64,000 nt of DNA from Vibrio artabrorum. Its GTDB lineage: Bacteria > Pseudomonadota > Gammaproteobacteria > Enterobacterales > Vibrionaceae. Below, piece after piece: positions 44,523 to 63,132 of this stretch (position 1 is its first letter; each line of letters starts with the position of its first letter). The notes under the pieces were generated by a model. The model was not told where the DNA came from, did not search any database, and saw only the letters and a list, made by a program, of their open reading frames with translations. The stretch spans positions 682,001-746,000 of the forward strand of contig NZ_AP025459.1 in the NCBI RefSeq assembly GCF_024347295.1, written 5' to 3'. The position numbers and the translations under genes were made by a program.

Positions 44523-44679
44523 GGTCTTCTTTCCTGTTAGCGTAGCTTTTGTTTTTAATTGACTTAATTTAAAGGGTATTTTTATTGGATACGCTTGGTT
44601 GAGTAGCAAAAAATGACACCATTAAGGGCAATTTAACGCATTTTACCAACTGCTGATTCTTGTATGATGAAATCAAACA
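44523..44679 (+). promoter_or_regulatory. Remaining upstream region of the rhamnose operon
   Basis: This 157-bp stretch lies between IS copies 3 and 4. A tatgat box is at 44663-44668. Because copy 4 has a clean target duplication, this stretch was originally continuous with the rhaB ribosome site at 45743 and probably holds the operon promoter. No gene is present. Confidence 0.4.
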
Positions 44680-45733
44680 GGCGTTGTTGCGTAATTCAAT
44701 GGAACTAAATCAAGAACCTACGATCTGAGCAGCTACGTCCACTCTATCTCGTAGCCCTATGCCTAAACCACGTTACAAAACAACTAACTGGAAGCAATAC
44801 AACCAATCACTCATTAACCGTGGTTCTCTGACCTTTTGGATTGATGAAGAAGCAATAAGCGGATGGGCGCAAAGCAAACAGAATAAGCGCGGGAGGCCGC
44901 GTCGGTTCAGTGATTTAGCTATCACGACAGCACTCATGGTCAAACGAGTTTTTTCTATGCCATTGAGAGCGCTGCAAGGATTTATCGACTCGATATTTAG
45001 GTTAGCCCATGTACCGTTAAGTTGTCCGCATTACACCTGCATCAGTCGTAGAGCCAAGCAAGTTGAGGTTTCATTTAAGACTAAAACGAGAGGAGCGATA
45101 CAGCACCTAGCTATTGATGCTACTGGCCTTAAGGTTTATGGCGAAGGTGAATGGAAAGTCAAAAAACATGGGACGGATGGCAAGCGTAGAGTCTGGCGAA
45201 AGCTGCATATTGCAGTCGATACCAACACTCATGAGATCATTGCCGCCGAGCTAAGTTTATCGACGGTTACAGATGGAGAAGTACTCCCGAACTTACTGAA
45301 ACAAACACGCCGAAGTATCCTTAAGGTGTCTGGTGATGGCGCTTACGACACGAGAGCGTGTCACGCTGCTATTAAGATTAAGGGAGCTATTGCGCTTATT
45401 CCCCCAAGAGAAGGGGCTGCCTTTTGGGAGCGTGGTCACCCTCGAAATCTCGCCGTGGGTTGCCAGAAATTATACGGCTCAAATAAGTATTGGAAAGAGC
45501 GGTATGGATACCACAAACGTTCACTCTCAGAAACAGCGATGTATCGAGTTAAACAGTTGCTAGGAGGGAAACTGAGCTTAAGAAATTACAATGCCCAGGT
45601 GGGTGAAACTTACGCGATGATAAAAGCGTTGAACAAGCTTACTGGGTTAGGTATGCCTGAAACTTGTCGCATTGACTAAGAAACAAGCGAAACGGGTTGG
45701 CTCTATCTCTAAATTTAATTACGCAACAAAGCC
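44680..45733 (+). mobile_element. IS5-family (IS903-type) element, copy 4, between promoter and rhaB
   Basis: This 1054-bp copy is flanked by a perfect 9-bp duplication aatcaaaca (44671-44679 and 45734-45742). It is a simple, recent-looking insertion. It sits 22 bases before the rhaB ATG, so it separates the probable promoter from the operon. Confidence 0.96.
44759..45679 (+). CDS. IS5-family transposase (copy 4)
   Basis: This intact 306-residue DDE transposase is identical to copy 1. It is transcribed toward rhaB, so read-through could feed the rhamnose operon. Confidence 0.95.
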   Translation: MPKPRYKTTNWKQYNQSLINRGSLTFWIDEEAISGWAQSKQNKRGRPRRFSDLAITTALMVKRVFSMPLRALQGFIDSIFRLAHVPLSCPHYTCISRRAKQVEVSFKTKTRGAIQHLAIDATGLKVYGEGEWKVKKHGTDGKRRVWRKLHIAVDTNTHEIIAAELSLSTVTDGEVLPNLLKQTRRSILKVSGDGAYDTRACHAAIKIKGAIALIPPREGAAFWERGHPRNLAVGCQKLYGSNKYWKERYGYHKRSLSETAMYRVKQLLGGKLSLRNYNAQVGETYAMIKALNKLTGLGMPETCRID

Positions 45734-45755
45734 AATCAAACACTAGGAGGTGGTT

Positions 45756-47129
45756 ATGAATTACTTTTTGGCAGTCGATATTGGTGCTTCTAGTGGAAGG
45801 CACTTATTAGCGCATATTGAGAATGAACAAATAGTGCTTGAAGAAATATATCGATTTGAAAATAAACTCTCATCAGTCGATGGTCAACTATGTTGGGAGC
45901 TGGATAATCTATTTAGTCATATTCTCGAAGGGCTAAAACAATGTGTCACGATCGGCAAGATACCAAAAAGCGTCGGTATTGACACTTGGGGTGTTGACTT
46001 CGTTCTTCTGGATAATGAAGAGAATATTATCGGTAATACGGTATCGTATCGAGATAGTCGTACAAAAGGTGTTATGGATGATATTTGTGATCAAGTTGGG
46101 CACCAAGAAATCTATAACAAAACTGCCATTCAGTTTATGGGTTTTAATACCTTATATCAGATGAAGTCTGTGGGTTCAAAAGAGAAGCAACAAGCCTGCT
46201 CGTTTTTGATGATTCCAGATTATATCAACTATCTGCTAACGGGTGTTAAAGCGAATGAGTATACCAATTCAACAACAACTCAAATGCTAAATATTGATAC
46301 TGATGATTGGGATAAAGATTTACTTGAAGTATGTGGTATCAGCAAAGATATCTTCACTAAACCCCAATACCCTGGTCATCAGCTTGGAAACCTTAAATCC
46401 TCAATACAAGAGGCGATTGGCTTTGATTGCGAAGTAGTATTACCAGCTTCACACGATACAGCTTCTGCTTTTATTGCCAGTGTTTTAGAACTCGAAGACG
46501 ATGGTGTAATTTTGAGTTCTGGTACTTGGTCATTGTTGGGCACTGAACTTGAGAAACCGATAGTTTCTGATATTTCTCGTCAAAGCAATTTCACTAATGA
46601 AGGTGGTTACGACAAACGATTTAGATTTTTGAAAAATATTATGGGTCTTTGGATCGTTCAAGAAGTTTCACGAATATTGGAATACAGGTATTCATATGCA
46701 GAATTAGCCGATCAGGCAAGAGAAGCCAGTGATTTTACCTCTGTTATCGATGTCAATAATGAACGCTTCTTTGTGAGTGAAAACATGATCGAAGAAATTG
46801 TCGATTATTGTAAAGAAACTGGACAAGACATCCCACAAACAACAGGTGAAGTCTGCATGTGTGTTTATCGAAGCCTAGCCAAGTCTTATAACCAGTACAT
46901 TGAAGAACTTATCAGTATTACCGGAAAAACCGTAGATAAAGTCAATATCATTGGTGGAGGGTGTAAAAATCAGTTTCTCAATGAGTTAATTGAACAGGAA
47001 ACCAAGAAAGAAGTTATTGTCGGCCCAGTAGAAGCAACTGGTATGGGTAATATTATTGTACAAATGTTATCCATGGGCGAAATTGCTCATTTAAAACAAG
47101 CGAAAAATTATATTAGAAACAGCATTTAA
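45756..47129 (+). CDS. rhaB: Rhamnulokinase
   Basis: This 457-residue FGGY-family kinase phosphorylates L-rhamnulose to L-rhamnulose 1-phosphate. The N-terminal AVDIGASSGRHLLAH is the phosphate-binding motif of RhaB, IDTWGVDFVLLD follows, and the FGGY-C glycine motif NIIGGGCKNQFLN is near the end. The ATG at 45756 has a perfect aggagg site five bases upstream, so the GTG six bases earlier is rejected. It is the first gene of the rhaB-A-D-M-sulfatase operon. An IS inserted immediately upstream probably alters expression. Confidence 0.93.
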   Translation: MNYFLAVDIGASSGRHLLAHIENEQIVLEEIYRFENKLSSVDGQLCWELDNLFSHILEGLKQCVTIGKIPKSVGIDTWGVDFVLLDNEENIIGNTVSYRDSRTKGVMDDICDQVGHQEIYNKTAIQFMGFNTLYQMKSVGSKEKQQACSFLMIPDYINYLLTGVKANEYTNSTTTQMLNIDTDDWDKDLLEVCGISKDIFTKPQYPGHQLGNLKSSIQEAIGFDCEVVLPASHDTASAFIASVLELEDDGVILSSGTWSLLGTELEKPIVSDISRQSNFTNEGGYDKRFRFLKNIMGLWIVQEVSRILEYRYSYAELADQAREASDFTSVIDVNNERFFVSENMIEEIVDYCKETGQDIPQTTGEVCMCVYRSLAKSYNQYIEELISITGKTVDKVNIIGGGCKNQFLNELIEQETKKEVIVGPVEATGMGNIIVQMLSMGEIAHLKQAKNYIRNSI

Positions 47130-47141
47130 TTAGGAATTATC

Positions 47142-48407
47142 ATGGAACAGAGTTTAAAAAATAGATACGAACTGAGTAAGTCACTTTACGCTAAATGGGG
47201 CATTGATGTAGATGCTGTTCTTGAGAAATTAAAAGGCGTTAAGGTCTCTATTCATTGTTGGCAGGGTGATGATGTTACGGGCTTCGAGGAAGCGGCTCAT
47301 GAACTGTCTGGTGGTATCTCTGCTACTGGTAGCTACCCGGGTAAAGCAACAAATGCACAAGAGTTACGTGCTGATTTAGACAAAGCACTGAGTCTAATCC
47401 CAGGCAAGCACAAGATTAACCTCCACGCTCTTTATGCAGAAACACATGGTGTAGCGGTTGAGCGTGATGAGTTGAAACCAGAACACTTTGCTGGTTGGGT
47501 CGAATGGGCGAAAGAGCGTGCTCTAGGCCTAGATTTCAACCCTAGTATGTTCTCTCACCCGAAAGCGAGTGATGGTTTGACACTGTCTCACCCTGATAAA
47601 GAGATCCGTGATTTCTGGATTAAGCACTGTATTGCTTCACGTAAAATTGGCGAATATTTCGGTAAGGAATTGGATCAAACGTGTCTGACAAATATCTGGA
47701 TTCCAGACGGCTATAAAGACACCCCAAGTAACCGTTTTGCGCCGCGTCAGCGCCTAAAAGATTCTCTAGATGAGATTTTTGCTGTTGACGTTGACGAGCA
47801 GTTCAACAAGGACTCAGTAGAATCAAAAGTATTCGGTATTGGTGTTGAATCTTACACGGTTGGTTCGCATGAGTTTTATATGGGTTATGCGGTCGCGAAC
47901 AATAAGCTTTGTTTGCTAGACAATGGCCACTATCACCCGACCGAGTCGGTTGCGGACAAGATCTCATCAATGCTGCTTTATCAAGATGAGCTTGCTTTGC
48001 ACGTTACTCGCCCTGTTCGTTGGGACAGTGATCATGTCGTAACGCTAAATGACGAAGTTAAAGAAATCGCGAAAGAGCTAGTTCGTACAGACAGCTTGGA
48101 CAAAATATACCTGGGTTTAGATTTCTTTGATGCAAGCATCAACCGCGTAGCTGCGTGGGTATTGGGTACTCGCAATATGCAAAAAGCGCTACTTGAAGCG
48201 ATGCTTATGCCACATGACAAGCTGACTGAGTTGCAAGATAAAGGCGACTTCACACAGCGCTTGGTTCTGATGGAAGAGCTAAAAACCTATCCAATGGGTG
48301 ATATTTGGAACTATTTCTGTGAATTGAATGATGTACCAGCAAACGAAGATTGGTTTAGAGCGATCGAAGTTTATGAGCAAGACGTTCTGTTTAAGCGAGG
48401 CAAATAA
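47142..48407 (+). CDS. rhaA: L-rhamnose isomerase
   Basis: This 421-residue cytoplasmic TIM-barrel metalloenzyme interconverts L-rhamnose and L-rhamnulose. Its size is near that of E. coli RhaA (419). [14 protein letters not shown] near residue 31 and [10 protein letters not shown] match the family. It starts 12 bases after rhaB, and its stop codon overlaps the rhaD start (taATG), so translation is coupled. Confidence 0.95.
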
Positions 48408-49219
48408 TGGATAAGTTAGCATTTATACAAGAGTTTAAAAAGACGACCAACGACGCATGGTTGAAAGGATGGCATGAGCGTAATGGGGGCAATTTGTCCT
48501 ACCGTTTGACTCAATCCGAAGTAGAGCAAGCTCGTCCATTTTTTGAAGAAACATCGCAATGGCTGGAGATCGGTGTAACGGTTTCCAATCTTGCAAATGA
48601 ATACTTTATCGTTACCGGTAGTGGTAAGTACTTTCGAAACGTAGAAGTTTGTATTGAAGAAAATGCTGGAATTATCCAAGTTTCAGAAGATGGCACTCAA
48701 TACCGAACACTTTGGGGTCTTGTTAACGACGCGAAACCGACGAGTGAGTTGCCTGCGCACCTTATGAATCATTCAGTCAAGTTTGACGCGACGGGTGGAG
48801 CGCATCGAGTTGTTATGCACTCTCACACGACAAATTTAATCGCGCTTACCTTTGTTTTGCCGCTGGAAGCTGAGACGTTTACTCGTGAACTATGGGAAAT
48901 GGCGACGGAGTGCCCAGTTGTATTCCCTGCTGGTGTGGGCATTGTCCCATGGATGGTTCCCGGTGGTCGTGCTATTGCTGAGTACACTAGCGAACTGATG
49001 AAAACGTACGATGTGGCTATTTGGGCTCATCACGGTACATTCTGTTCTGCGGAAGACCTAAGTCTCGCGTTTGGCTTGATGGATACCGCAGAGAAGGCCG
49101 CTGAAATACTAGTAAAAGTTCTCGCGATGGGTGGCAAACGTCAAACTATTCAACCAGCAGAGTTCAAAGAGCTAGAATCTGCATTTAACGTTACGTTGAA
49201 TGAAAAAGCATTGGCTTGA
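48407..49219 (+). CDS. rhaD: Rhamnulose-1-phosphate aldolase
   Basis: This 270-residue class II aldolase splits rhamnulose 1-phosphate into dihydroxyacetone phosphate and L-lactaldehyde. Zinc ligands are expected in VVMHSHTTN (two His) and in WAHHGTF (third His). The N-terminal WHERNGGNLSYRL is typical. It overlaps rhaA at its start. No lactaldehyde reductase or dehydrogenase gene is in the window. Confidence 0.94.
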   Translation: MDKLAFIQEFKKTTNDAWLKGWHERNGGNLSYRLTQSEVEQARPFFEETSQWLEIGVTVSNLANEYFIVTGSGKYFRNVEVCIEENAGIIQVSEDGTQYRTLWGLVNDAKPTSELPAHLMNHSVKFDATGGAHRVVMHSHTTNLIALTFVLPLEAETFTRELWEMATECPVVFPAGVGIVPWMVPGGRAIAEYTSELMKTYDVAIWAHHGTFCSAEDLSLAFGLMDTAEKAAEILVKVLAMGGKRQTIQPAEFKELESAFNVTLNEKALA

Positions 49220-49230
49220 GGAGGCGTTAG

Positions 49231-49545
49231 GTGATTAGAAAAGCGTTTAAACTCAAAGTTAACATGGATCAGTTTGAAGAATACAAAAAGCGTCACGACA
49301 ATATTTTTCCTGAGTTAATTGATGTACTTAAAGCTGCGGGAGCAAACAACTACTCTATCTTCCTAGACGAGGAGACAGGTTGTCTGTTTGGTTATGTTGA
49401 GTTAGAATCTACTAATAAATGGAACGATGTTTCAAAAGCTGAAGCTTGCCAGAAGTGGTGGAGTTATATGGAAGATATCATGGAGACGAATCCAGATAGC
49501 AGCCCTAAATCCACAGAGTTAACAGAGATGTTTTATCTAGCGTAA
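49231..49545 (+). CDS. rhaM: L-rhamnose mutarotase
   Basis: This 104-residue ferredoxin-like-fold protein interconverts the anomers of L-rhamnose. His22 in KKRHDNIFPEL is the proposed catalytic residue, and WW at the KWWSYMEDIM segment is conserved. It starts with GTG behind a strong gaggagg site, 11 bases after rhaD. Its presence in the operon supports supply of rhamnose from an oligosaccharide. Confidence 0.93.
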   Translation: MIRKAFKLKVNMDQFEEYKKRHDNIFPELIDVLKAAGANNYSIFLDEETGCLFGYVELESTNKWNDVSKAEACQKWWSYMEDIMETNPDSSPKSTELTEMFYLA

Positions 49546-49592
49546 CTATGATCCGCTAATGCTATGAAACAAATTAGTATCAAGAGGTAAAT

Positions 49593-50966
49593 ATGAACAA
49601 GCCGAATATTATTGTAATTTTTAGCGATCAGCAGCGTTGGGATACGTTGGGTTGTTACGGTCAGGAACTGCCTGTAACACCAAACCTAGACGAGCTTGCA
49701 CGAGACGGTGTTATGTTCGAGAACGCATTCACAGTCAACCCTGTATGTGGTCCAACACGTTCAACGATGCAAACTGGGCTGTATCCAACCGAAACCGGTT
49801 GCTTCCGAAATGACATTATTCTTCCCCAAGGTCAAAAAACCGTGGCTCACTTTCTTTCTGATGAAGGTTACAGTGTCGGTTACGTCGGTAAATGGCACTT
49901 AGCTTCAAATAACACTGCTCATGAGGGCTTTGTTGTAGCGGCACCGACAGAAAGCTCAGGTGAAACTATCGATAATTGCTTCACAGCAATACCAAACCAG
50001 TATCGAGGTGGTTATAAAGACTTTTGGGTTGCTTCCGATATCCTTGAAGGCACATCGCATGGCTATGGCGGACATATGTTTGACATCGATGGCAACAAGG
50101 TAAGTTGGGATGAAGATGTATATCGCGCAGATTTTTTGACTGACTTGACGACAGACTACATCGATAATTACCAAGAAGAGAAGCCGTTCTTTTTATTCTT
50201 GTCTTATCTAGAGCCACATCATCAGAATGACAAAAATACGTATGAAGGCCCCCATGGCTCTCAAGAGAAATGGAGTAACTTCAAAGTCCCTGGTGATCTA
50301 GAACCGTTTGTTGATGGTAATTGGGCAGAAGAATACCCAGATTATTTAGGTTGTTGTAATAATCTCGACCAAAATGTTGGAAAGATTCGCCAAGCGGTAA
50401 AAGATAAAGGCTTAGATGATAATACTGTAATCGTTTATCTGAGTGACCACGGCTCTCACTTCAAGACTCGCAATGGTGAATACAAGCGTTCATGTCACGA
50501 CTCTTCGATTCGTATTCCGTTCGTGATTTACGATCCACGTGCGAAAGCAGGTCAGGTGATAGATGACCATGCAAGCATCATTGATGTAGTTCCAACTCTG
50601 CTGAAGGCTGCGGGCGTTAAAGTACCTAGCTACATGCAGGGTCAGCCGCTTCAAGATCTGTATATTGACAACGCTAAGAAGAGTAATGCTAGCTTTATTC
50701 AGATCAGTGAGTCACAGATTGGCCGTGCTATTCGTACTGATTCATGGACGTATTCGGTATCAGCTCCGGATCAAAGTGGTTTAATCGAGAAAGACAGCGG
50801 GGTGTACCAAGAAGAGTTCTTGTACAACCTAGTTGATGATCCTAATCAGTTAGAAAACTTGGTGGCTAATGAAGATCTGAAGCCGGTGAAAGCGGAGCTA
50901 AGAAAGCTTTTATTGGAAGAGATCTATCGTATTGAAGGGGTACAACCGGAAATCATCGAAGCGTAA
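49593..50966 (+). CDS. S1-family sulfatase (formylglycine-dependent), apparently cytoplasmic
   Basis: This 457-residue type I sulfatase has the C-x-P-x-R activation motif (Cys52 in VCGPTRSTMQTG, to be oxidised to formylglycine). Metal and active-site segments include FSDQQRWDTLGCYG, GYVGKWHL and YLSDHGSHF. No signal peptide is visible, so it should act in the cytoplasm. It is the last gene of the rhamnose operon, 47 bases after rhaM, which suggests it removes sulfate from rhamnose sulfate or a short rhamnose oligosaccharide (inference). No formylglycine-generating enzyme is encoded in the window. Confidence 0.9.
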   Translation: MNKPNIIVIFSDQQRWDTLGCYGQELPVTPNLDELARDGVMFENAFTVNPVCGPTRSTMQTGLYPTETGCFRNDIILPQGQKTVAHFLSDEGYSVGYVGKWHLASNNTAHEGFVVAAPTESSGETIDNCFTAIPNQYRGGYKDFWVASDILEGTSHGYGGHMFDIDGNKVSWDEDVYRADFLTDLTTDYIDNYQEEKPFFLFLSYLEPHHQNDKNTYEGPHGSQEKWSNFKVPGDLEPFVDGNWAEEYPDYLGCCNNLDQNVGKIRQAVKDKGLDDNTVIVYLSDHGSHFKTRNGEYKRSCHDSSIRIPFVIYDPRAKAGQVIDDHASIIDVVPTLLKAAGVKVPSYMQGQPLQDLYIDNAKKSNASFIQISESQIGRAIRTDSWTYSVSAPDQSGLIEKDSGVYQEEFLYNLVDDPNQLENLVANEDLKPVKAELRKLLLEEIYRIEGVQPEIIEA

Positions 50967-51002
50967 CTGTTGGTGTTGAACACACATTTATATGTTCATT
51001 GC

Positions 51003-51036
51003 AAAAGTCCATAGTGGTAACACTGTGGACTTTTTT
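51003..51036. terminator. Terminator of the rha-sulfatase operon
   Basis: aaaagtccatagtg and cactgtggactttt form a 14-bp stem with one mismatch and a gtaa tetraloop, followed by Ts. The stretch to 51222 has no gene. Confidence 0.85.
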
Positions 51037-51222
51037 ATTGTCATCTTTCCAGCAACAGTTTCGATCTCAATGCTAATGGGCACCTTGGAGGTGCAACCTA
51101 TGATTCGGCTGTGCAATCGGTTTGTGCTCATTCGTAAGCAACTATGAGGAAACCATTATTGGGCGAGGATAGTTCGTTGATACGGTGGGGTAAATGAAGA
51201 TATGGTTCGGCGGGAGGTTATA

Positions 51223-52308
51223 CCAATTCCATTAAATTTGTGATCTAATATGGACTCTGAAAGGAGTCTATATGAACTCAGATTTATCAAAACTTATCAG
51301 CACAACCTCCAACGCTAGGTTAAGACTAAGATTACTCGCCGCATCTCACTTTATTGATGGTAAAAATCGAACTGAAATCGCTTCATTTCTTAAAGTCAGT
51401 CGCCTTAGTGTGAACAAATGGATAAAAGCCTATCTCGATTATGGCGTTGAGGGACTAACAGAAAAACCTCATACGGGAAGGCCTTCCAGACTGACTACTG
51501 AGCAAAAAGCACACCTTAAAGAATACGTCACTTCAAATGCGATAAAACCTGAAGGTGGGCGTTTACAAGGGAGTGATATCGCACAATTCATCTTTGATGA
51601 ATTTGACGTTTCTTACCAACCATCCGGTGTATACCGCTTGTTGCATGAACTTAACTTGAGCTGGATAACAACGCGTTCAAAGCACCCAAAACAATCAGAA
51701 GAAACCCAAGAGTCTTTTAAAAAAATTCCAAATAGAAACGATCCTTAAGATCCCTGGCCATATCCACTTACAAGAAGTACTTGTTTGCTTTCAAGACGAA
51801 GCTAGATTTGGTCAGCGCAATACCACAACCAAGATTTGGGCTGAAAAAGGAACTCGACCTAGAGCCGTTCAACAGCAGCAATTTGAGTACGCTTATTTGT
51901 TTGGAGCTATTTGTGTCAATACGGGCGAAGCTGAAGCGATTGTTTCACCGTTAAGCAACATGGAAGCCATGACGAAGCACCTTGAATTGATCTCAACGGC
52001 GACACCTATTGGTAAACACTCAGTGATTATTATGGATCAAGCAAGCTGGCATCAAACACACTTAGCCAATCACTTTAAGAACATCACGATAATCCATATC
52101 CCGCCCTATTCACCAGAATTAAACCCAATAGAGCAAGTTTGGCAATGGCTTCGTCAGTACAGGTTAGCGAATCGGTGTTTTGAGAACTATAACGATATAG
52201 TGAACTCGGTGTGCGAAGCTTGGAACAGTTTTTGTGAAGATAAACGCAGAGTCCAATCTCTCTGCTTTAGAGACTGGACTAGATTGATAAGTTAATTAAT
52301 GGAATTGG
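51223..52308 (+). mobile_element. IS630-family element
   Basis: The terminal inverted repeats ccaattccattaa (from 51223) and ttaatggaattgg (to 52308) are bounded by a TA duplication on each side (51221-51222, 52309-52310), as expected for IS630/Tc1-type elements. The length is 1086 bp. Confidence 0.88.
51272..52295 (+). pseudogene. IS630-family transposase in two frames
   Basis: The first frame (51272-51748) gives the helix-turn-helix part (TEIASFLKVSRLSVNKWIKAY, then GRPSRLTTEQKAHLKE). At a run of seven As (51719-51725) reading must move one base forward. It then continues as FQIETILKIPGHIHLQ and through the DDE motifs FQDEARFGQ, IIMDQASWH and YSPELNPIEQVW to the stop at 52295. The shift may be programmed or may be a one-base A-tract mutation that inactivates the gene. 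Both halves are otherwise complete. Confidence 0.8.
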
Positions 52309-52347
52309 TATTACAATCCCATCGAGTATGAGACAGACTCTTATAGT

Positions 52348-52447
52348 CTCGCATAGGTTGTTTCCTCTTTACTTTTGGTCGAGCAAAGAAGTTACATATA
52401 CCGTTGTCACGGTCAAACCTATGCGAGTCACCCCAGCAGAGCTGGGG
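52348..52447. repeat. Inverted repeat pair and hairpin, possible mobile-element remnant
   Basis: ctcgcataggtt (52348-52359) and aacctatgcgag (52416-52427) are perfect 12-bp inverted arms 56 bases apart. Directly after comes ccccagc-aga-gctgggg (52431-52447), a 7-bp hairpin. The pattern is reminiscent of an IS200/IS605-type end or a regulatory RNA, but no transposase is present. It lies just downstream of the porin gene and could act as its terminator. Confidence 0.35.
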
Positions 52448-52463
52448 GTTTATCAATGTTTAA

Positions 52464-53156
52464 TTAAAAACTATATAGTAAACCTAAACGATAACGTAAT
52501 TGATAGCCTGAAACAGTAGCGCCAACTGGAACACCAGCAAATGTAATATATGGTGTAATGCCTGGTGCAACTTTATAATATGTTTTAAACTCAATTTCGT
52601 GTTTAAAGTCGTGCTTATCCCAATAGTATTGGTCATCTAACCCTTTATGGTAATCATATTCTAACTGAAACGTTAGAGCTTTCGTTGCTTTGTACCCTAC
52701 TTTAGCCTGATATTGACTTTTTTGTTTAATGTATTTTGTACTATTTGATGGAACGGTAATTTCGTGCTTATATTTTAATTCAGTAAAAATACCATAATCC
52801 CAATTTGATTGTAAACCTAATTGAGGCGTATACATTACACCACTAGATGTTGATGTGAAGTCAATTTTAGGTATTAAAGTGTGAGTTTCATTTACATGAT
52901 AACGGTAACCTAACTGTATTTCACTACTTGATAATGCATATGTATCAAGAGTTTTACCTTTATTAACTATTTGAACACCAAAAAAAGTATTACCTGAACT
53001 ACCACCTATTTTTACCAATGTTGCATTTTCATTAACAGGGTTAAACTCATGCGCTCTTGGTAAGTACTCTTGACGGATGTCTAAAACAGCTGCAGAAACT
53101 GAAGTAGCTAACATTAATGGAGCAAGGGTAAGTGTTATCAGTTTAATTGATTTCAT
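52464..53156 (-). CDS. KdgM-type oligouronide-specific porin
   Basis: This 230-residue outer-membrane beta-barrel precursor has signal peptide IKLITLTLAPLMLATSVSAA. The mature start LDIRQEYLPRAHEF and the ending YQLRYRLGLLYSF match the KdgM family. Such monomeric 12-strand porins admit anionic oligogalacturonides or similar uronic-acid oligomers. It is divergent from the symporter gene at 53701 with a shared 540-bp control region. Its base composition is AT-rich compared with the core genes, which fits acquisition by transfer (inference). Confidence 0.85.
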   Translation of the reverse strand: MKSIKLITLTLAPLMLATSVSAAVLDIRQEYLPRAHEFNPVNENATLVKIGGSSGNTFFGVQIVNKGKTLDTYALSSSEIQLGYRYHVNETHTLIPKIDFTSTSSGVMYTPQLGLQSNWDYGIFTELKYKHEITVPSNSTKYIKQKSQYQAKVGYKATKALTFQLEYDYHKGLDDQYYWDKHDFKHEIEFKTYYKVAPGITPYITFAGVPVGATVSGYQLRYRLGLLYSF

Positions 53157-53700: not shown

Positions 53701-54005
53701 ATGAATTATGATTATCTTGTGATCGGAGGCTACTTTGTCCTTATGGTGGTAATTAGCTTACTATTTAAAAAAATGGCAACTAATAGTACTAGTGATTACT
53801 TCCGTGGGGGAGGTAAAATGTTATGGTGGATGGTTGGCGCTACCGCCTTTATGACACAATTTTCCGCTTGGACTTTTACCGGTGCAGCAGGTAAAGCATT
53901 TAGTGATGGTTTTGCCGTTCTTGGCGTTTTTATCGGTAATATAGTGGCTTACGTTTTTGCTTATTTCTATTTTGCAAAACGCTTCCGTCAAATGCGTGTC
54001 GATAC
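53701..54005 (+). pseudogene. Sodium:solute symporter, 5' part (split by IS copy 5)
   Basis: This encodes the first 101 residues (MNYDYLVIGGYFVLMVVI, FRGGGKMLWWMVGATAFMTQ) and is then interrupted after RVD by the IS. Joined to 55069-56530 it restores a 588-residue symporter, exactly the length of the intact paralogue at 13972 and clearly similar to it throughout. As it stands only a truncated protein with the first helices could be made. Confidence 0.9.
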
Positions 54006-55059
54006 GGCGTTGTTGCGTAATTCAATGGAACTAAATCAAGAACCTACGATCTGAGCAGCTACGTCCACTCTATCTCGTAGCCCTATGCCTAAACCACGTT
54101 ACAAAACAACTAACTGGAAGCAATACAACCAATCACTCATTAACCGTGGTTCTCTGACCTTTTGGATTGATGAAGAAGCAATAAGCGGATGGGCGCAAAG
54201 CAAACAGAATAAGCGCGGGAGGCCGCGTCGGTTCAGTGATTTAGCTATCACGACAGCACTCATGGTCAAACGAGTTTTTTCTATGCCATTGAGAGCGCTG
54301 CAAGGATTTATCGACTCGATATTTAGGTTAGCCCATGTACCGTTAAGTTGTCCGCATTACACCTGCATCAGTCGTAGAGCCAAGCAAGTTGAGGTTTCAT
54401 TTAAGACTAAAACGAGAGGAGCGATACAGCACCTAGCTATTGATGCTACTGGCCTTAAGGTTTATGGCGAAGGTGAATGGAAAGTCAAAAAACATGGGAC
54501 GGATGGCAAGCGTAGAGTCTGGCGAAAGCTGCATATTGCAGTCGATACCAACACTCATGAGATCATTGCCGCCGAGCTAAGTTTATCGACGGTTACAGAT
54601 GGAGAAGTACTCCCGAACTTACTGAAACAAACACGCCGAAGTATCCTTAAGGTGTCTGGTGATGGCGCTTACGACACGAGAGCGTGTCACGCTGCTATTA
54701 AGATTAAGGGAGCTATTGCGCTTATTCCCCCAAGAGAAGGGGCTGCCTTTTGGGAGCGTGGTCACCCTCGAAATCTCGCCGTGGGTTGCCAGAAATTATA
54801 CGGCTCAAATAAGTATTGGAAAGAGCGGTATGGATACCACAAACGTTCACTCTCAGAAACAGCGATGTATCGAGTTAAACAGTTGCTAGGAGGGAAACTG
54901 AGCTTAAGAAATTACAATGCCCAGGTGGGTGAAACTTACGCGATGATAAAAGCGTTGAACAAGCTTACTGGGTTAGGTATGCCTGAAACTTGTCGCATTG
55001 ACTAAGAAACAAGCGAAACGGGTTGGCTCTATCTCTAAATTTAATTACGCAACAAAGCC
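54006..55059 (+). mobile_element. IS5-family (IS903-type) element, copy 5, inside a symporter gene
   Basis: This 1054-bp copy is flanked by the perfect 9-bp duplication tgtcgatac (53997-54005 and 55060-55068). It is a simple insertion that disrupts the symporter reading frame. Confidence 0.97.
54085..55005 (+). CDS. IS5-family transposase (copy 5)
   Basis: This intact 306-residue DDE transposase is identical to copy 1. Confidence 0.95.
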   Translation: MPKPRYKTTNWKQYNQSLINRGSLTFWIDEEAISGWAQSKQNKRGRPRRFSDLAITTALMVKRVFSMPLRALQGFIDSIFRLAHVPLSCPHYTCISRRAKQVEVSFKTKTRGAIQHLAIDATGLKVYGEGEWKVKKHGTDGKRRVWRKLHIAVDTNTHEIIAAELSLSTVTDGEVLPNLLKQTRRSILKVSGDGAYDTRACHAAIKIKGAIALIPPREGAAFWERGHPRNLAVGCQKLYGSNKYWKERYGYHKRSLSETAMYRVKQLLGGKLSLRNYNAQVGETYAMIKALNKLTGLGMPETCRID

Positions 55060-56530
55060 TGTCGATACACCAACCGAAGCAATCCGTCGTCGCTTTGATA
55101 ACACTAGTGAACAATTTTTCACATGGCTTATCATCCCGTTAAGTATAATCAATGGTGGTATCTGGCTAAATGGCTTAGGAGTGTTTGGTTCTGCAGTTTT
55201 TGACGCTGATATAACAACGACCATCTGGATAACAGGCCTTGCAGTATTAGCTATATCACTACTTAGTGGAGCTTGGGGTGTTGTTGCATCAGACTTTATT
55301 CAAACCTTGGTTATTGCTATCGTTTCAATCGCTTGTGCCATAGTTGCACTTGTTGCAGTGGGTGGCCCAGGGGAAATTATCAACAACTTCCCTTCAGGTT
55401 TCATGGTTGGACCTGATATGAACTATCCATTACTTATTGTTTGTTCTTTTTTCTTCTTTCTAGTGAAGCAACTCCAAGGCATCAATAATATGCAAGATGC
55501 TTACCGCTTCCTTAACGCAAAAGATTCAAACAATGCGAGTAAAGCAGCATTAATGGCAGGCTTAATGATGCTTGTTGGCACTATCATTTGGTTTATTCCA
55601 CCTTGGGCATCTGCAATTTTATACCCAGATGCTGCACAACAATATTCTGAACTTGGTGCAAAATCACGTGATGCCGTTTACTTAGTATTTGCACGTGAAA
55701 CCATGCCAATTGGTACTGTCGGCTTATTAATGGCTGGTTTATTTGCGGCTACTATGTCTTCTATGGATTCAGCACTAAACCGTAATTCAGGTATTTTTGT
55801 ACGTAGCTTCTACGCTACTATTGTTCGTAAAGGTAAAGCTTCCGACAAAGAACAACTTCGTATGGGACAAATTGCCTGTATCGTTAACGGATTACTAGTT
55901 ATCCTGATGGCTCAATTCTTCTTATCACTAAAAGAAGTCAGCCTATTTGATCTTACAATGCGCGTAACAACTCTATTACAAGGTCCAATTCTTGTACCAC
56001 TTTGTTTTGGTATGTTCATTCGCAAAACGCCCAAATGGGCACCTTGGGCTACCGTTTTATTTGGTGCGTTTGTATCTTGGTCTGTTATCGAAATCTTTAC
56101 ACCACAAACTGTAGGTGCTTGGTTTGGTCTTGAGAATCTCACTGCTCGTGAAATTTCTGAATTTAAAACAACAATCACCATCGTCGCACACCTAGTTTTC
56201 ACTACGAGTTTCTTCTGGGCTACTACCCTATTCTATAAAGAAGAGACAAATCCAAATAGTGAACGCCAAGCTAAGTTCTTTGTAGACATGGAAACTCCAG
56301 TAATCGCGTCTGAAGGTCAAGATATTGTTGACCGTATGCAACGTGAAAAACTAGGTACTTTGGTAATGATAATGGGCGCAGGCTTGTTATTGATGATCCT
56401 CATTCCAAACCCAATGTGGGGTCGCCTATTATTCTTATGCTGTTCAGCGTCCATATTTGGACTTGGGTATCTATTGAAAAAAAGTGCCGGAATTGATCCT
56501 AAGATAGAACAAAGTTTAAAAGCTTCTTAA
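55060..56530 (+). pseudogene. Sodium:solute symporter, 3' part
   Basis: This encodes residues from VDTPTEAIRRRFDNTSEQF to the C-terminus, with the sodium-site segment ATMSSMDSALNRNSG. The frame is open from inside the IS (a start is possible at 54998), but the first two or three helices are missing. An excision of IS copy 5 would restore the gene exactly. The likely substrate was an unsaturated uronate or oligosaccharide, judged from the porin and GH88 neighbours (inference). Confidence 0.9.
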
Positions 56531-56546
56531 AATCAATAATCAAAGT

Positions 56547-56580
56547 ACTGCTATCATTAAAGTTTAGATAGCAGTGTTTT
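56547..56580 (+). terminator. Terminator of the symporter gene
   Basis: actgctatc (56547-56555) and gatagcagt (56567-56575) form a perfect 9-bp stem followed by gtttt. It is a moderately strong signal before the GH88 fragment. Confidence 0.65.
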
Positions 56581-56631
56581 ATCAAATATCGTTGTTAATA
56601 AAATATTTATTGTAAATTTATAGGTTTAATT

Positions 56632-57036
56632 ATGATTATAAATGACTCTTGGGCAATTCAAGCTTGGTCAGATGTATTTACAAAAGTAAAAAAAACAAGT
56701 AACGACATCTCAATTCCTTTCCCGTCACTGACTTCAGATGGCATTTATGAAAATACACATGCACCATGGGCTTGGGTTGTCGGTTTTTGGCCTGGCTTAC
56801 TGTGGCTTTTATATGAAAAAGAACACTATGATCCATTCAAAAATATCGCTATTTCACGTGAAGATATAATGGATGGTGCTTTAGATGAATATGTTAATAT
56901 TCACCATGATGTTGGCTTTATGTGGCAATTAACTTCAGTCAAACAATGGGAACTCCTTGGTACTGAAAAGGGCGTTGTTGATCAAATCATCTTGAAGAAC
57001 AACGATGCCATATACGACTATCCGTTAGTTTCTGAC
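56632..57036 (+). pseudogene. GH88 unsaturated uronyl hydrolase, N-terminal fragment
   Basis: About 134 residues of a GH88-type enzyme remain, with APWAWVVGFWPGLLWLLYE and the catalytic Asp93 in NIHHDVGFMWQLTS. Full enzymes have about 380 residues, so nearly two thirds are missing. The frame runs into an IS5-type remnant near 57025-57036. The complete enzyme would have removed the 4,5-unsaturated uronic acid from lyase products in the cytoplasm. GH105 was considered, but HHDVGFM fits GH88 better. Confidence 0.78.
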
Positions 57037-57678
57037 GGGCATACCTAGTCCTATGACTTTGTTTATAGCCTTGACGTTCGCCATGATTTCACCCACTTGA
57101 GCGTTGTAACATCTCAAACTCAATTTACCGCTTGTTAGTCCCTTGTATCGGGACATCGCGGTCTCAGATATTGAACGATAGTGATATCCAGACTCAGCTT
57201 TCCACTCCGCTATTGTCCCATTTTTCAGAGCTGTTACTGCTTCGTTTCTGGGGTGACCGTCCTCCCAAGGTACTGCATTCTTTCGAGGGGGGATCAACGG
57301 AGTACAGCCTTTATTTTTCAGAGCCTCGTGGCAACTTTTTGTGTCATAAGCTCCATCTGCAGATACGGCTGTGACCTTTCTGCGTAGTGGGTTGAGCAAC
57401 GTCGGTAGCACTTCACTATCGCCAACATTTACAAGGCTGACTTCCGCGCTAATAGCTTCGTGAGTATCCACATCTACAGCTAAATGCAGCTTACGCCATG
57501 TTCTGCGTTTTTCTGCACCGTGCTTTTTTACTTTCCATTCACCCTCACCAAAGACTTTAAGCCCAGTGGAATCAATGGCTATATGGCGAATAGCGCCTCT
57601 AGATTTATTGCGATATTTGACCTGAACCGTCTTCGAGCGTTTACTAATACAGGTGTAGTCGGGAGAGGTCAGCGGAAC
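57025..57678 (-). pseudogene. Second IS5-family transposase, truncated at both ends
   Basis: The minus-strand frame encodes an IS903-type transposase different from the six-copy type but related to it. It carries TSPDYTCISKRSKTVQVKYR, the Asp in AIDSTGLKVFGEGEW, the Asp in SADGAYDTKSC, and the Glu in RSISETAMSRYK. The N-terminal part is removed by an IS66 insertion at 57679, and the 3' end runs straight into the GH88 fragment with no visible terminal repeat. Confidence 0.8.
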
Positions 57679-58525: not shown

Positions 58526-59579
58526 GGCGTTGTTGCGTAATTCAATGGAACTAAATCAAGAACCTACGATCTGAGCAGCTACGTCCACTCTATCTCGTAG
58601 CCCTATGCCTAAACCACGTTACAAAACAACTAACTGGAAGCAATACAACCAATCACTCATTAACCGTGGTTCTCTGACCTTTTGGATTGATGAAGAAGCA
58701 ATAAGCGGATGGGCGCAAAGCAAACAGAATAAGCGCGGGAGGCCGCGTCGGTTCAGTGATTTAGCTATCACGACAGCACTCATGGTCAAACGAGTTTTTT
58801 CTATGCCATTGAGAGCGCTGCAAGGATTTATCGACTCGATATTTAGGTTAGCCCATGTACCGTTAAGTTGTCCGCATTACACCTGCATCAGTCGTAGAGC
58901 CAAGCAAGTTGAGGTTTCATTTAAGACTAAAACGAGAGGAGCGATACAGCACCTAGCTATTGATGCTACTGGCCTTAAGGTTTATGGCGAAGGTGAATGG
59001 AAAGTCAAAAAACATGGGACGGATGGCAAGCGTAGAGTCTGGCGAAAGCTGCATATTGCAGTCGATACCAACACTCATGAGATCATTGCCGCCGAGCTAA
59101 GTTTATCGACGGTTACAGATGGAGAAGTACTCCCGAACTTACTGAAACAAACACGCCGAAGTATCCTTAAGGTGTCTGGTGATGGCGCTTACGACACGAG
59201 AGCGTGTCACGCTGCTATTAAGATTAAGGGAGCTATTGCGCTTATTCCCCCAAGAGAAGGGGCTGCCTTTTGGGAGCGTGGTCACCCTCGAAATCTCGCC
59301 GTGGGTTGCCAGAAATTATACGGCTCAAATAAGTATTGGAAAGAGCGGTATGGATACCACAAACGTTCACTCTCAGAAACAGCGATGTATCGAGTTAAAC
59401 AGTTGCTAGGAGGGAAACTGAGCTTAAGAAATTACAATGCCCAGGTGGGTGAAACTTACGCGATGATAAAAGCGTTGAACAAGCTTACTGGGTTAGGTAT
59501 GCCTGAAACTTGTCGCATTGACTAAGAAACAAGCGAAACGGGTTGGCTCTATCTCTAAATTTAATTACGCAACAAAGCC
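58526..59579 (+). mobile_element. IS5-family (IS903-type) element, copy 6
   Basis: This 1054-bp copy has left flank cattgaagc (inside IS66) and right flank ggcgttcgt (inside a symporter gene). No target duplication is present. The junction fits a deletion between two IS5 copies that removed the IS66 N-terminal half and the first part of the symporter gene (inference). Confidence 0.93.
58605..59525 (+). CDS. IS5-family transposase (copy 6)
   Basis: This intact 306-residue DDE transposase is identical to copy 1. Confidence 0.95.
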   Translation: MPKPRYKTTNWKQYNQSLINRGSLTFWIDEEAISGWAQSKQNKRGRPRRFSDLAITTALMVKRVFSMPLRALQGFIDSIFRLAHVPLSCPHYTCISRRAKQVEVSFKTKTRGAIQHLAIDATGLKVYGEGEWKVKKHGTDGKRRVWRKLHIAVDTNTHEIIAAELSLSTVTDGEVLPNLLKQTRRSILKVSGDGAYDTRACHAAIKIKGAIALIPPREGAAFWERGHPRNLAVGCQKLYGSNKYWKERYGYHKRSLSETAMYRVKQLLGGKLSLRNYNAQVGETYAMIKALNKLTGLGMPETCRID

Positions 59580-61031
59580 GGCGTTCGTCGTCGTTTTGGT
59601 GCTACAAATGAGCAAGTATTTACTTGGGCGACCATGCCAACCAGCATCGTTTATACCGGTATTTGGCTAAATGGTTTGGCACTGTTTGTCAGTGCGGTAT
59701 TTAAAGTAGATATTGAGACAACAATCGTAGTTACAGGTCTAATCGTCCTGTTTATTTCTGTTATCGGCGGCGCGTGGGGTGTTGTAGCATCCGACTTTGT
59801 TCAGATGGTGGTCATTATGGCCGTGACCGTGGTATGTGCTGTTGCCGCTCTAATTAAGATAGGTGGTCCTACGAACCTAATTGAACAGTTCCCTGCGGAT
59901 TCGATCATGGGTTCAAATATGAACTATCCGCTGTTGTTCGTGGCATGGTTCATCTTCATGTTCGTGAAGCAACTTCAAAACATCAACAACATGCAGGACT
60001 CTTATCGATTCTTAACAGCTAAAGATTCGACCAATGCTCGTAAAGCTGCGCTACTTGCGTTTGTTCTTATGCTGATTGGTCCTGCTATTTGGTTCTTGCC
60101 TCCTTGGGTGTCGGCAGTGATCTACCCAGATGCAGCCACAGTGCACGCAGCACAGCTAGGTAAAAAAGCAGCGGATGCGGTTTACTTGGTATTCGTTGAG
60201 AATGCGATGCCTGTTGGTATGGTTGGCCTACTTATGTCTGCGGTATTTGCCGCGACCATGTCTTCAATGGACTCTGGCCTTAACCGTAACTCCGGTATCT
60301 TTGTTCGTAACTTCTATGCACCAATCATTGATAAAAAGGCTGACGACAAGAAACTAATGCGTGTAAGCCAAGTGGTTACTGTGGTGTTTGGTGCTCTGAT
60401 TATCGCAGTTGCCCTATTCATTAACTCTCTTCGTGGATTGAGCTTGTTCGATGCGATGATGTACGTCAGTACGCTACTGCAGATGCCAATATTGGTCCCA
60501 TTATTCTTCGGTATCTTCATCAAGAAGACGCCAGATTGGGCGGCATGGGCAACATTGGCTGTCGGTATTATTGTCTCTTACCTTGTTAGTTTCGTGATTA
60601 CTGCCGATGTTGTAGCAAACTGGCTGAACTTAGACACGCCATTTACGGGCCGTGAAGCGAAAGACCTAAAAGTCTTACTCGGTATCATGGGTCACTTGTT
60701 CATCACGGGTGGTTTCTTCTGCCTAACCACTAAGTTCTACAAAGAGCCAGTTGGTGAACGTGAATCTGAACTGACTGAGTTCTGGAGCGATGTTGCTACT
60801 CCTGTAGTAGAAGAAGCAGGTCAAGATGAGTTGGATCGTCAACAACGCAACATGCTAGGCAAATTGATTCTTGTATTTGGTGTTCTAGTGACGCTAATGG
60901 TACTCATCCCGAATCCATCCTGGGGACGAATGGCCTTTGTCTTCTGTGGAGCGGTCATTGTGACGGTTGGTAGTTTGCTTCTGAAAAGTGCAAAACAAGC
61001 CGATAAGCTTACGACTAGTAGCGCCACATAA
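59580..61031 (+). pseudogene. Third sodium:solute symporter, N-terminally truncated
   Basis: The frame begins at the IS edge with GVRRRFGATNEQVFTWATM, which aligns with residue 107 onward of the intact paralogue. It continues to the normal C-terminus (sodium-site segment ATMSSMDSGLNRNSG). The first 105 or so residues, with about three helices, are gone. A start at 59634 is possible but would give a defective transporter. It is clearly diverged from the other two symporters, so it probably had its own substrate. Confidence 0.88.
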
Positions 61032-61047
61032 TTCTAATGCCCCCATG

Positions 61048-61081
61048 AGGAGCTACGCAGTTCACAGTAGCTCCTTTTTTT
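61048..61081. terminator. Terminator after the truncated symporter
   Basis: aggagctac (61048-61056) and gtagctcct (61067-61075) form a perfect 9-bp stem followed by Ts. It separates the symporter from the beta-helix protein gene, which must have its own promoter. Confidence 0.85.
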
Positions 61082-61131
61082 AACCAGTAACTAAAAGAAG
61101 TACATAATAAACGCGGAAGGGAGATCTAAAC

Positions 61132-63132
61132 GTGAAAATGAACGTGAACACACTCGCCATACTTATTCCTCTAACCCTATATAGCGCATCTGGCATTTCA
61201 GCTCCAGGTTATAAACAAGGCGCAACGTTACCTACGACATTTCAAAATACTATCTACGCAGTTGATCACGGTGTTATCGTCGACGATGGCATCGATGATT
61301 CTGCTGCATTGCAAGCTATTATTGACAATGAGGTTACCGCTTCTACGAGTAAAAATACGGTGATAATACTGCCACAGGGCACTATTAACCTGAGTGATGA
61401 AATCCATATTGACAAGTCAGGGTTAGTTATCAAAGGGGCGGGAAGCGATCCAGCCACGGGTACTCAAATAGTCGTTAAGTCTTGGTCACCTTATGGTGTG
61501 GATGCCAGTAATGCTCCTGATTTTGATAAGAAATACTGGCCTGGTTTTGGCGTATTTCGTGTCGAAACTCGAGAGAAGCATGTCAAGGAACCCGCTTACG
61601 AGGGGAGCGTCAACTTCCACTGGAAACACAGCATTGAGTTTGCACAACCTGCAAAAATGGGTGACAACACCATTGTAATAGAATCAGGAAAAGCCGGTGA
61701 GTTTAGCCAGGGCGATCTTATTTATGTCGGTGCCGCCAACGACAAAGCGTTTTTGGATAAAGGGCAAGTGCCAGAATCGAGAAGAAGTGGTAGTCACATA
61801 AAAACCGGTCACATGCGCACACAGATTTTTAAAGTGACAGCGGTAAACAGTGGCAACAATTCGGTCACCCTTGATGGCGCTCTAGAGTTTGATATCCCGC
61901 TAAACAATGAGAGTGGTTACAACAGCCGTGTCATGCCAGTCAGTGCGGTAGAAAACTTTGGTCTGCAAGACTTCTTTCTAACCATGGACACGAAAGGCAG
62001 CCATTGTGAGGGCTACAATCGCAACCAGTTTTCGGCGAGCAACCCTAATGGCGTCTTGTATCGATATGAGAACGTATGTGCACAAGATGCGATTCACGGC
62101 ATCATTCTCAAGTGGGCGTATAACGGCTGGGTTGATAATGTCCGTATCGACATGATCGGTTCACATCCTATTGTCAGTGAGTTCGCCAAAGCAGTCACCA
62201 TCTCCAACAGCACGATCGACGGCTCGTGGAATAAGGGGGCTGGCGGAAATGGCTATGTTCGTGGCTCTAAGTTATACAACAGCTGGATCCACAATAACGA
62301 TATTCGTAACATTCGACACCTCGCTCTCCAATGGTCAGCGACTGGAAATATCGTCGAGCACAATACACTGAATGTTGATATGAACTTCCACGGTGGCTGG
62401 GAGCGAAATAATTTGGTTCGCTTAAATCATATCGCCGTGCCGTACGAGCATCGCAGTTGGTCTAATGGGGCGCCAGAATCGGGGTCAACGTGGCAACCGA
62501 TTTGGGTTGGCTCCGGCGACCACGCCAGTAAGTGGTCAGGACCGACAGGGCCTAATAATGTCCTAACCAACAATACACTGGAGAAAGCAAAGAGTTCGGG
62601 TGAGAGTATTACTCGATGGGGGCTATTCGATGAACCTGATGTCGAGTACGCGCTCAATTGGGATGGCAGCCAGTACAAACATCTCAATATTAATGAAGAG
62701 CCAATAGCGACTTGGAATCAAGCGTTGGCAGAGGGCGTTCATCAGCAGATACCAACTTCTGGTGTCACTGTGGCTGGAGGTTCTTGGCCTCCGGAGGGGG
62801 TCGATCCAGAGGAGCCTGTTGATCCAATCGATCCACCTGTATCTGAAGGGTGTGATGTCATCACCCAATATAGTTGGGGGCAGAAAATGGAGTTGGACTT
62901 ATCCCAAGCAAGCTGTGTAGCGATTGATAGAGATCTCGCAGGAAAGACAGTGCAATTGTGGGACAGTGATGCAAATAATAGTTGTGATTTCAGGGGGACG
63001 TTATCCAGCATTGATGGTAGCGGCTCAGTTAACGTGACATCAAACTATGTGAGCAGTAATAGCCTAACAGGTAAGCTGGTTAAAGTGATACCAAATAATA
63101 ATTGTCAGTATGTTAAATTTAGGTCGTACTAA
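61132..63132 (+). CDS. Secreted right-handed beta-helix protein, candidate polysaccharide lyase or hydrolase
   Basis: This 666-residue protein has a signal peptide (VNTLAILIPLTLYSASGISA). The N-terminal Pectate_lyase_3-like start AVDHGVIVDDGIDDSAALQAIIDN leads into a parallel beta-helix to about residue 550. This region has asparagine-rich rungs, for example NGYVRGSKLYNSWIHNNDIRNIR and NIVEHNTLNVDMNFHGGWERNN, and resembles DUF4955-type proteins. A Pro/Glu/Asp linker (about 553-573) leads to a C-terminal module of about 90 residues with four Cys, probably carbohydrate-binding (inference). The start is GTG 61132 or ATG 61138 behind ggaaggga. It is the best candidate for the depolymerase of this locus. 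Confidence 0.75.
   Translation: MKMNVNTLAILIPLTLYSASGISAPGYKQGATLPTTFQNTIYAVDHGVIVDDGIDDSAALQAIIDNEVTASTSKNTVIILPQGTINLSDEIHIDKSGLVIKGAGSDPATGTQIVVKSWSPYGVDASNAPDFDKKYWPGFGVFRVETREKHVKEPAYEGSVNFHWKHSIEFAQPAKMGDNTIVIESGKAGEFSQGDLIYVGAANDKAFLDKGQVPESRRSGSHIKTGHMRTQIFKVTAVNSGNNSVTLDGALEFDIPLNNESGYNSRVMPVSAVENFGLQDFFLTMDTKGSHCEGYNRNQFSASNPNGVLYRYENVCAQDAIHGIILKWAYNGWVDNVRIDMIGSHPIVSEFAKAVTISNSTIDGSWNKGAGGNGYVRGSKLYNSWIHNNDIRNIRHLALQWSATGNIVEHNTLNVDMNFHGGWERNNLVRLNHIAVPYEHRSWSNGAPESGSTWQPIWVGSGDHASKWSGPTGPNNVLTNNTLEKAKSSGESITRWGLFDEPDVEYALNWDGSQYKHLNINEEPIATWNQALAEGVHQQIPTSGVTVAGGSWPPEGVDPEEPVDPIDPPVSEGCDVITQYSWGQKMELDLSQASCVAIDRDLAGKTVQLWDSDANNSCDFRGTLSSIDGSGSVNVTSNYVSSNSLTGKLVKVIPNNNCQYVKFRSY

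Follow-up and report, generated by a model that had tools for sequence, protein, structure and literature searches.

Why does a sulfatase gene stand at the end of a run of L-rhamnose genes in Vibrio artabrorum, and which polymer would it serve? The genes lie in a stretch of 64,000 nucleotides (C2:682001-746000, hereafter the window) of the V. artabrorum genome, G000, which comprises 4.44 Mb in two contigs. A first-pass annotation had read positions 44523-63132 of the window as a decaying utilisation locus for a polymer of sulfated rhamnose and uronic acid, with ulvan as the favoured candidate. Ulvan is the sulfated sugar polymer of sea lettuce and a main polymer of green-tide algae. We compared the window with relatives in a sample of 196 genomes of the genus Vibrio, labelled by G-numbers, among them Vibrio sp. 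qd031 (G016), V. hippocampi (G021), V. variabilis (G038), V. celticus (G086), V. hannami (G100) and V. methylphosphonaticus (G148). The window very probably covers one end of a locus for ulvan catabolism that is being dismantled by transposons.

A sulfatase gene in line with L-rhamnose catabolism

Five forward-strand genes follow one another head to tail with intergenic gaps of at most 47 bp: rhaB, rhamnulokinase (45750-47129; TIGR02627, 565.5 bits, cut-off 528), rhaA, L-rhamnose isomerase (47142-48407; TIGR01748, 705 bits, cut-off 585), rhaD, rhamnulose-1-phosphate aldolase (48407-49219; NF002963, 345.8 bits, cut-off 170), rhaM, L-rhamnose mutarotase (49231-49545; TIGR02625, 147.4 bits, cut-off 99.6), and the gene of an S1-type sulfatase (49593-50966; PF00884). 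Each of the four rha products reaches an NCBIfam equivalog cut-off, rhaD by way of NF002963, while its TIGR02624 score of 340 stays below the cut-off of 401. The sulfatase passes no NCBIfam equivalog cut-off. It is leaderless, and we regard it as a candidate L-rhamnose-3-sulfate (Rha3S) sulfatase. Its residues C52, P54, R56, T61 and G62 are invariant across 34 aligned sequences and spell C-x-P-x-R-x4-T-G, which we take to be the signature of S1 (formylglycine) sulfatases. The same genome encodes a sulfatase maturase (TIGR03942, 520.9 bits, cut-off 349), as an S1 enzyme requires, and when the predicted sulfatase fold was ranked against solved structures, 6hr5, an ulvan S1_25 sulfatase module, came first. 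The window joins a sulfatase to L-rhamnose catabolism, a combination expected of ulvan utilisation loci.

Is this arrangement more than a local accident? At a threshold of E <= 1e-60 the sulfatase was found in 10 of the 196 genomes (G000, G007, G008, G016, G021, G038, G043, G086, G100 and G148), and in all ten Vibrio carriers rhaB, rhaA, rhaD and rhaM lie immediately 5' of it in unchanged order, with rhaA split in V. variabilis and rhaB in V. hannami. The block is 99.5% identical over 5.5 kb in V. celticus, so the single operon proposed in the first-pass annotation is not a product of chance. From rhaB to the sulfatase, V. artabrorum and V. celticus differ in 26 codons, 25 of them silently; these genes have therefore been under selection for most of the divergence time, by a measure that counts silent versus changed codons only and does not date the decay. 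Photobacterium pectinilyticum carries the rha-sulfatase block at 89%, surrounded by PL25, GH88, AraC-type, symporter, maturase, TauE and FucO-like genes. The sulfatase counterpart of Vibrio sp. FNV38 is also 89% identical, and the V. hippocampi ortholog bears the UniRef label 'Ulvan-active sulfatase'. The first-pass annotation would have been refuted if the sulfatase's neighbours in other genomes pointed to a different polymer; in the Vibrionaceae clade they fit ulvan. Homologues of 46-52% identity sit in a different gene context. Loci L127-L129, with greedy open reading frame (ORF) calls only, are too poor for judging neighbours.

More distant sulfatases show another association. At loci L142-L147 the sulfatase adjoins a transporter of the TctA type (in all 5 loci checked) and a maturase-like gene occurs in 5 of 6; the hosts are genomes of about 2 Mb from one family and of 4-5 Mb from another. 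The substrate of these TctA-linked enzymes is perhaps a sulfated carboxylate. A 209-aa protein with a cyclic-nucleotide-binding domain (L059:17085-17714) accompanies sulfatase and maturase in ulvan loci, and relatives of it at 33-36% identity lie near TctA-linked sulfatases in three of six loci, the related loci being L143, L144 and L146. It is possibly a sulfatase-linked regulator, judging by its domain and position.

Ulvan lyases in relatives and a stub in the window

If the polymer is ulvan, where are the lyases? In V. methylphosphonaticus, a 504-aa neighbour of the sulfatase matches the solved short ulvan lyase 6byp (E 1.4e-201), classed as PL24 in the accessible part of PMC6431674, and a 499-aa neighbour matches the PL25 ulvan lyase 5uam (E 1e-180). 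Seven of the ten carriers (G007, G008, G021, G038, G043, G086 and G148) have genes of both types no more than 15 kb from the sulfatase, typed by PF15892 match and position, with comparison to solved structures for the G148 pair only. All seven genomes with PL24 and PL25 have the sulfatase, against 3 of the 189 others (Fisher p = 6e-11, a value that overstates the association because the genomes are related). PF15892 matches occur as well in G004, G055, G058, G164, G169, G171 and G175 (frames of 340-836 aa), and further ones in G038 and G086; these were assumed to be neither PL24 nor PL25. G007 and G008 have additional sulfatases, and G008 also has GH78, GH43 and GH39-type enzymes, a set that would suit a xylose-containing ulvan.

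V. artabrorum itself has no PF15892 match, in a search that was positive in 14 other genomes, no PL25 protein, and of PL24 a stub only (PL28 and PL40 were not searched); G016 and G100 are likewise without a PF15892 match. The stub consists of the last 16 codons and the stop of the PL24 gene (40749-40799, reverse strand), cut where a transposon starts at 40800. PL24 residues 484-504 are matched at 40752-40814 on the reverse strand (21 residues, 86% identity, E 0.006), and the last 15 bp of this match fall inside the transposon end. Beside it, at 40050-40646 on the forward strand, lies a DJ-1/PfpI family gene that is 96% identical to the PF01965 gene between PL24 and porin in G148; the stub falls within a 926-bp block that shares 87% identity with the PL24/DJ-1 region of V. 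celticus. The locus accordingly reaches beyond the boundaries first drawn for it, since these remains at 40 kb and tens of kilobases past the window belong to it too. With lyases of both types at the locus in relatives and a PL24 stub in the window, the choice of ulvan as the polymer is borne out, and the intact version that had been expected among related Vibrio does exist, for example in G148.

A further beta-helix protein of 404 aa (PF13229) adjoins the ulvan symporter in G148 (L060:2443-3657, forward strand) and in G000 (C2:785876-787090), with 98% identity between the two. It is possibly another lyase.

Transposons, an inversion and lost genes

The window holds six full copies of a transposon of about 1054 bp, 99.9-100% identical to one another, with a PF13737/PF01609 transposase; we take it to be IS5-type. 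Two copies, at 44680-45733 and 54006-55059 (both forward strand), are flanked by 9-bp target repeats and are simple insertions. At the other four (starting at 38825, 40800, 43469 and 58526) the repeat is absent, as expected after recombination between copies; those at 43469-44522, at a rearranged junction, and at 58526-59579 also lie on the forward strand. The copy at 44680 stands just 5' of rhaB and parts the operon from its native upstream DNA (44523-44679, forward strand), which aligns over its full length to V. celticus 60314-60471. The sole promoter-like site in 44523-45800 points away from rhaB, and such sites are fewer than in shuffled sequence. This insertion may silence the operon.

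Downstream of the sulfatase lies a second kind of element (51218-52313, forward strand; PF13358 DDE domain), presumably IS630-type, with an identical inverted twin at C2:773347-774442. Joined together, the outer flanks of the two copies reproduce the uninterrupted 386-bp gap between sulfatase and maturase of V. celticus (379 of 383 bases identical, one 3-base gap). The 39 kb between them, from porin to maturase, are therefore inverted relative to V. celticus. The maturase, absent beside the sulfatase, was at one point considered lost; it sits 39 kb away, behind the inversion, and the locus is not the single run of genes that it had been taken for.

Alignment of G000 with V. celticus gives six blocks of 98.8-99.7% identity, among them the rha operon and a 17-kb block (99.6%), unlike the DJ-1/PL24-stub block with its 87%. 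Between block ends that in G000 all abut transposon copies, PL25, the ulvan porin and the greater part of PL24 have gone. A deletion scar of 642 bp (63133-63774) retains four patches, 77-90% identical to G148, of the start of a PL38-like gene and of a chemotaxis-receptor gene; it lies within the 17-kb block and is common to G000 and V. celticus. The first impression of a locus broken by insertions and deletions was well founded.

What remains of the proposed inner pathway

Next to the IS630-type element lies the gene of a KdgM-type oligouronide porin of a divergent, ulvan-type lineage (52464-53156, reverse strand; PF06178, 51.5 bits, cut-off 22). Its next relatives, at 50-56% identity, occur in exactly the seven genomes with PL24 and PL25 (8 of 196 with G000), so that this porin, as a member of the group it forms with symporter 1 and the GH88 fragment, has no close relative in the genus sample; the group as a whole finds no match above 76% in V. 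celticus between 7 and 90 kb. Another outer-membrane protein, at 12663-13574, had been labelled KdgM wrongly and is PF06629 MipA.

Sodium:solute symporter 1 is split by the transposon at 54006. Its 5' part (53701-54054, forward strand) is 84% identical, over residues 4-120, to an intact symporter at 13972-15747, and its 3' part (54998-56530, forward strand; PF00474), whose ORF starts inside the transposon, is 77-80% identical to relatives. An N-terminal fragment of a GH88 (unsaturated glucuronyl hydrolase) gene follows at 56632-57048 (forward strand; 1vd5, E 1.7e-8; 77% to a relative's GH88) and enters another transposon at about 56968. Porin, damaged symporter and GH88 fragment had all been named correctly at the first reading. 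A full-length GH88 is present at C2:755328-756773, inside the island described below (1vd5, E 2e-57), so that the enzyme type of ulvan loci survives beside its fragment. PF07470 (GH88/GH105) is unsuitable as a genus-wide probe: it misses G000 despite this gene, and its tally of 53 of 196 genomes is uninformative for these proteins.

Beyond the window, G000 retains full GH88, kduD, kdgK, eda, AraC-type, FucO-like, TauE, maturase, symporter and IclR genes; a second rhaB (rhaB2) and one more symporter are broken there. The frames of GH88, symporter, sulfatase, maturase, FucO-like and rha genes are full-length. In G000 the outward-facing enzymes are lost and most of the inner ones are kept.

A second uronate set lies before tdh at 13972-19355 (reverse strand), with the intact sodium symporter, a KDPG-aldolase (PF01081), a PfkB kinase, a cupin (18252-18575) and a short-chain dehydrogenase, the last four 54-78% identical to island copies. 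No protein seen comes closer to the split symporter 1 than the symporter of this set (13972-15747; 80-84%), and the MipA-type outer-membrane protein lies beside the set.

How would the intact locus work? From gene content and synteny we propose that the PL24 and PL25 lyases secreted by intact relatives break the Rha3S-uronate bonds of ulvan, and that the unsaturated oligomers would be imported by KdgM-type porins and sodium symporters. GH88, leaderless and so presumably cytoplasmic, would remove the unsaturated uronate. The equally leaderless sulfatase, matured by the radical S-adenosylmethionine (SAM) maturase encoded next to it, would desulfate L-rhamnose, probably as free Rha3S or short Rha3S oligomers. 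RhaM, RhaA, RhaB and RhaD would then convert rhamnose to dihydroxyacetone phosphate and lactaldehyde, the latter being reduced by the FucO-like iron alcohol dehydrogenase. In G000 such a pathway would lack PL24, PL25 and the ulvan porin and retain GH88, symporter, sulfatase, maturase, TauE, FucO-like and rha genes, scattered by the 39-kb inversion.

A probable island at the tdh gene

Has the set moved between species? The tdh 3' end (37935-38104, forward strand) has an imperfect, attachment-like copy at C2:801839-802000 (81%), so that the last 160-170 bp of the gene recur 82 kb on. This distal copy adjoins a four-ORF module, ordered 193-809-970-421 aa from the tdh copy, with one tyrosine recombinase: PF00589 is matched by the 970-aa protein only, and NCBIfam recombinase matches on it are below cut-off. 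With target-gene repeats at both ends and a recombinase beside one of them, the stretch of about 82 kb, which encloses all the remaining ulvan genes, has the make-up of a site-specific integrated island and would have been mobile. In V. celticus two copies follow tdh in series, one at 14349-14518 beside broken module genes, the other at 141450-141612, where the module remnants match those of G000 at 96-98%. The kbl-tdh genes, a single core locus, differ by 7% between the two species (93% identity) vs the near-identity of the rha and 17-kb blocks (99.5-99.6%), which suggests recent exchange of the ulvan set. In G043, G148 and G021, kbl-tdh is far from the ulvan block or on another contig, and the tdh site applies to G000 and V. 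celticus only.

Like GInt islands (PMC5385486), as far as the available text of that report describes them, the island has a recombinase module of four genes at one end, a specific insertion site, imperfect repeats on its flanks and catabolic or fitness cargo. It differs in that the small gene comes first, one integrase domain is recognisable, and the repeats measure about 160 bp rather than 10-11 nt. We did not adopt GInt as a name, as the module lacks the ginABCD order, in which there are three integrases and the small gene comes last, nor gamma-mobile-trio, for which no model matched in the NCBIfam scan. V. celticus carries two elements in tandem within the 3' end of tdh (G086:C2:2002062-141612, across the origin), each with a (broken) four-ORF recombinase module by a tdh copy; they possibly represent an unnamed island family.

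A separate poly-uronate module

The first-pass annotation had counted a secreted beta-helix protein and a second damaged symporter among the ulvan genes. Both descriptions are accurate; the assignment is not supported. The protein (61132-63132, forward strand) has a hydrophobic leader by crude hydropathy and a confident parallel beta-helix model (mean predicted local distance difference test score, pLDDT, 90.5), which makes it a secreted-type candidate lyase. It has no sequence match to any solved structure, and PF12708 scores 26.9 bits, just below the cut-off of 27. Its fold list is headed by a K1 capsule lyase, a phage protein and alginate epimerase/lyases; solved ulvan lyases are not among the best 50 rows of such lists, a weak absence. 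Symporter 2 (59634-61031, forward strand) starts after another IS5-type copy without residues 1-123, and its residues 124-588 round to 100% identity with those of G148. Agarivorans-type genomes keep both in a module with PL38-like, PL17-like and UxaC proteins and uronate-pathway genes, with no ulvan gene in the fetched stretches of 15-20 kb; we accordingly rejected the beta-helix protein as an ulvan lyase. The 3' end of an exonuclease gene (63775-63999, reverse strand; 100% over 74 aa to G148; its G043 ortholog is PF00929) follows the module. A second PF05426 alginate-lyase-type gene (L109:14671-15909, forward strand), 38% identical to the PL38-like protein, lies inside the island between transposon copies.

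Which polymer, and which way of life?

Could the operon serve another sulfated-rhamnose glycan, such as a bacterial or algal exopolysaccharide, its nearness to lyases reflecting a shared island rather than a pathway? Three of the ten carriers lack a PL24/PL25-type match and the sulfatase relatives at about 50% stand in other contexts, as this would have it. We consider it improbable, as both lyase types lie within 15 kb in the remaining seven carriers, GH88, maturase and symporter genes recur with the operon in Vibrio and Photobacterium, an ulvan sulfatase heads the fold ranking, and the window holds the PL24 stub. It is scarcely credible that these genes make up a single locus directed at a polymer of the pectin type (rhamnogalacturonan), to which KdgM porin, GH88 and beta-helix lyase would all contribute: the names KdgM and PF12708 do suggest pectin, and intact ulvan loci contain the 404-aa beta-helix protein, but the Pfam-scanned proteins of intact loci include no pectate-lyase family and do include two ulvan lyases and the sulfatase, and the window's beta-helix protein belongs to the other module. 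Glucuronan is a beta-1,4-polyglucuronate of Ulva walls, and the beta-helix protein might be a glucuronan lyase, which would turn the whole island into a set for the Ulva cell wall. The PL38-like, PL17-like and UxaC proteins, the uronate-pathway genes and the head of the fold list would agree with this, and according to the accessible part of PMC5966431 a glucuronan lyase is found among the PL17 enzymes that fall outside the alginate clade; we nevertheless think it rather unlikely.

With ulvan as the preferred polymer, is G000 a decaying degrader, or has it specialised in using, without lyases, the ulvan fragments that other bacteria set free? The full-length inner frames, the lack of a PF15892 match in G016 and G100 and the 25 silent codon differences favour such a specialist, which we take as a genuine possibility and still the less probable of the two states. 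Against it, rhaB is cut off by a transposon from the DNA that natively preceded it, the one promoter-like site seen there faces away, silent changes do not date the insertion, and rhaB2 and further symporters are broken. Sequence cannot tell a scavenger from a young relic. Tentatively, and with confidence somewhat short of even, we put forward a more specific scheme: the sulfatase would be a dedicated cytosolic Rha3S sulfatase, Vibrionaceae would import unsaturated ulvan disaccharides whole, cytosolic GH88 would strip the uronate, and free Rha3S would feed the rha pathway. Carriers would repeatedly drop their costly secreted lyases because the inner half works alone, living on their neighbours' fragments, and the set would move between species on the tdh island. 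Lyase loss itself is documented for G000; G016 and G100 are merely without lyases.

Relation to known systems

Ulvan polysaccharide utilization loci (PULs) of Vibrio are already published, so the kind is known (PMC13064171). Each of the three Vibrio strains KUL70, KUL78 and KUL80 carries a pair of short ulvan lyase genes, ullB and ullC, in a PUL (PMC13064171), and FNV38 has PL24, PL25, GH88, GH78 and sulfatases in the part of the report available (PMC11101340). Unlike these, V. artabrorum has lost both lyases; the accessible text of the two reports describes for those loci no transposon decay, no tdh island and no sulfatase within a rha operon. Alteromonas sp. 76-1 likewise has its PL24/PL25 lyases and monomer genes for ulvan on a mobile replicon, there a plasmid with TonB-dependent receptors, whereas here the set lies in a chromosomal tdh stretch with KdgM porins and sodium symporters (available part of PMC6431674). 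In Formosa agariphila an S1_25 sulfatase acts on Rha3S and GH88/GH105 remove unsaturated uronates; unlike the leaderless stand-alone enzyme of the rha operon, which is 27% identical, that S1_25 forms a fusion with GH78 and has Rha3S trisaccharides as its substrate (PMC8511951, as far as accessible).

One branch of the Formosa pathway ends at the monosaccharide rhamnose-3-sulfate in that same portion of PMC8511951, and the FNV38 authors name no rhamnose-3-sulfatase in the accessible text of PMC11101340. A sulfatase in an apparent operon with rhamnose catabolism is a candidate for this step; in the open-access texts available we found no published sulfatase inside a rha operon for ulvan. The step from degrader to scavenger could be studied in those carriers in which no lyase was detected.

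Elsewhere in the window, a thiamine pyrophosphate (TPP) riboswitch at 21273-21384 (forward strand), its only Rfam match, lies 5' of a phosphomethylpyrimidine kinase gene at 21486.

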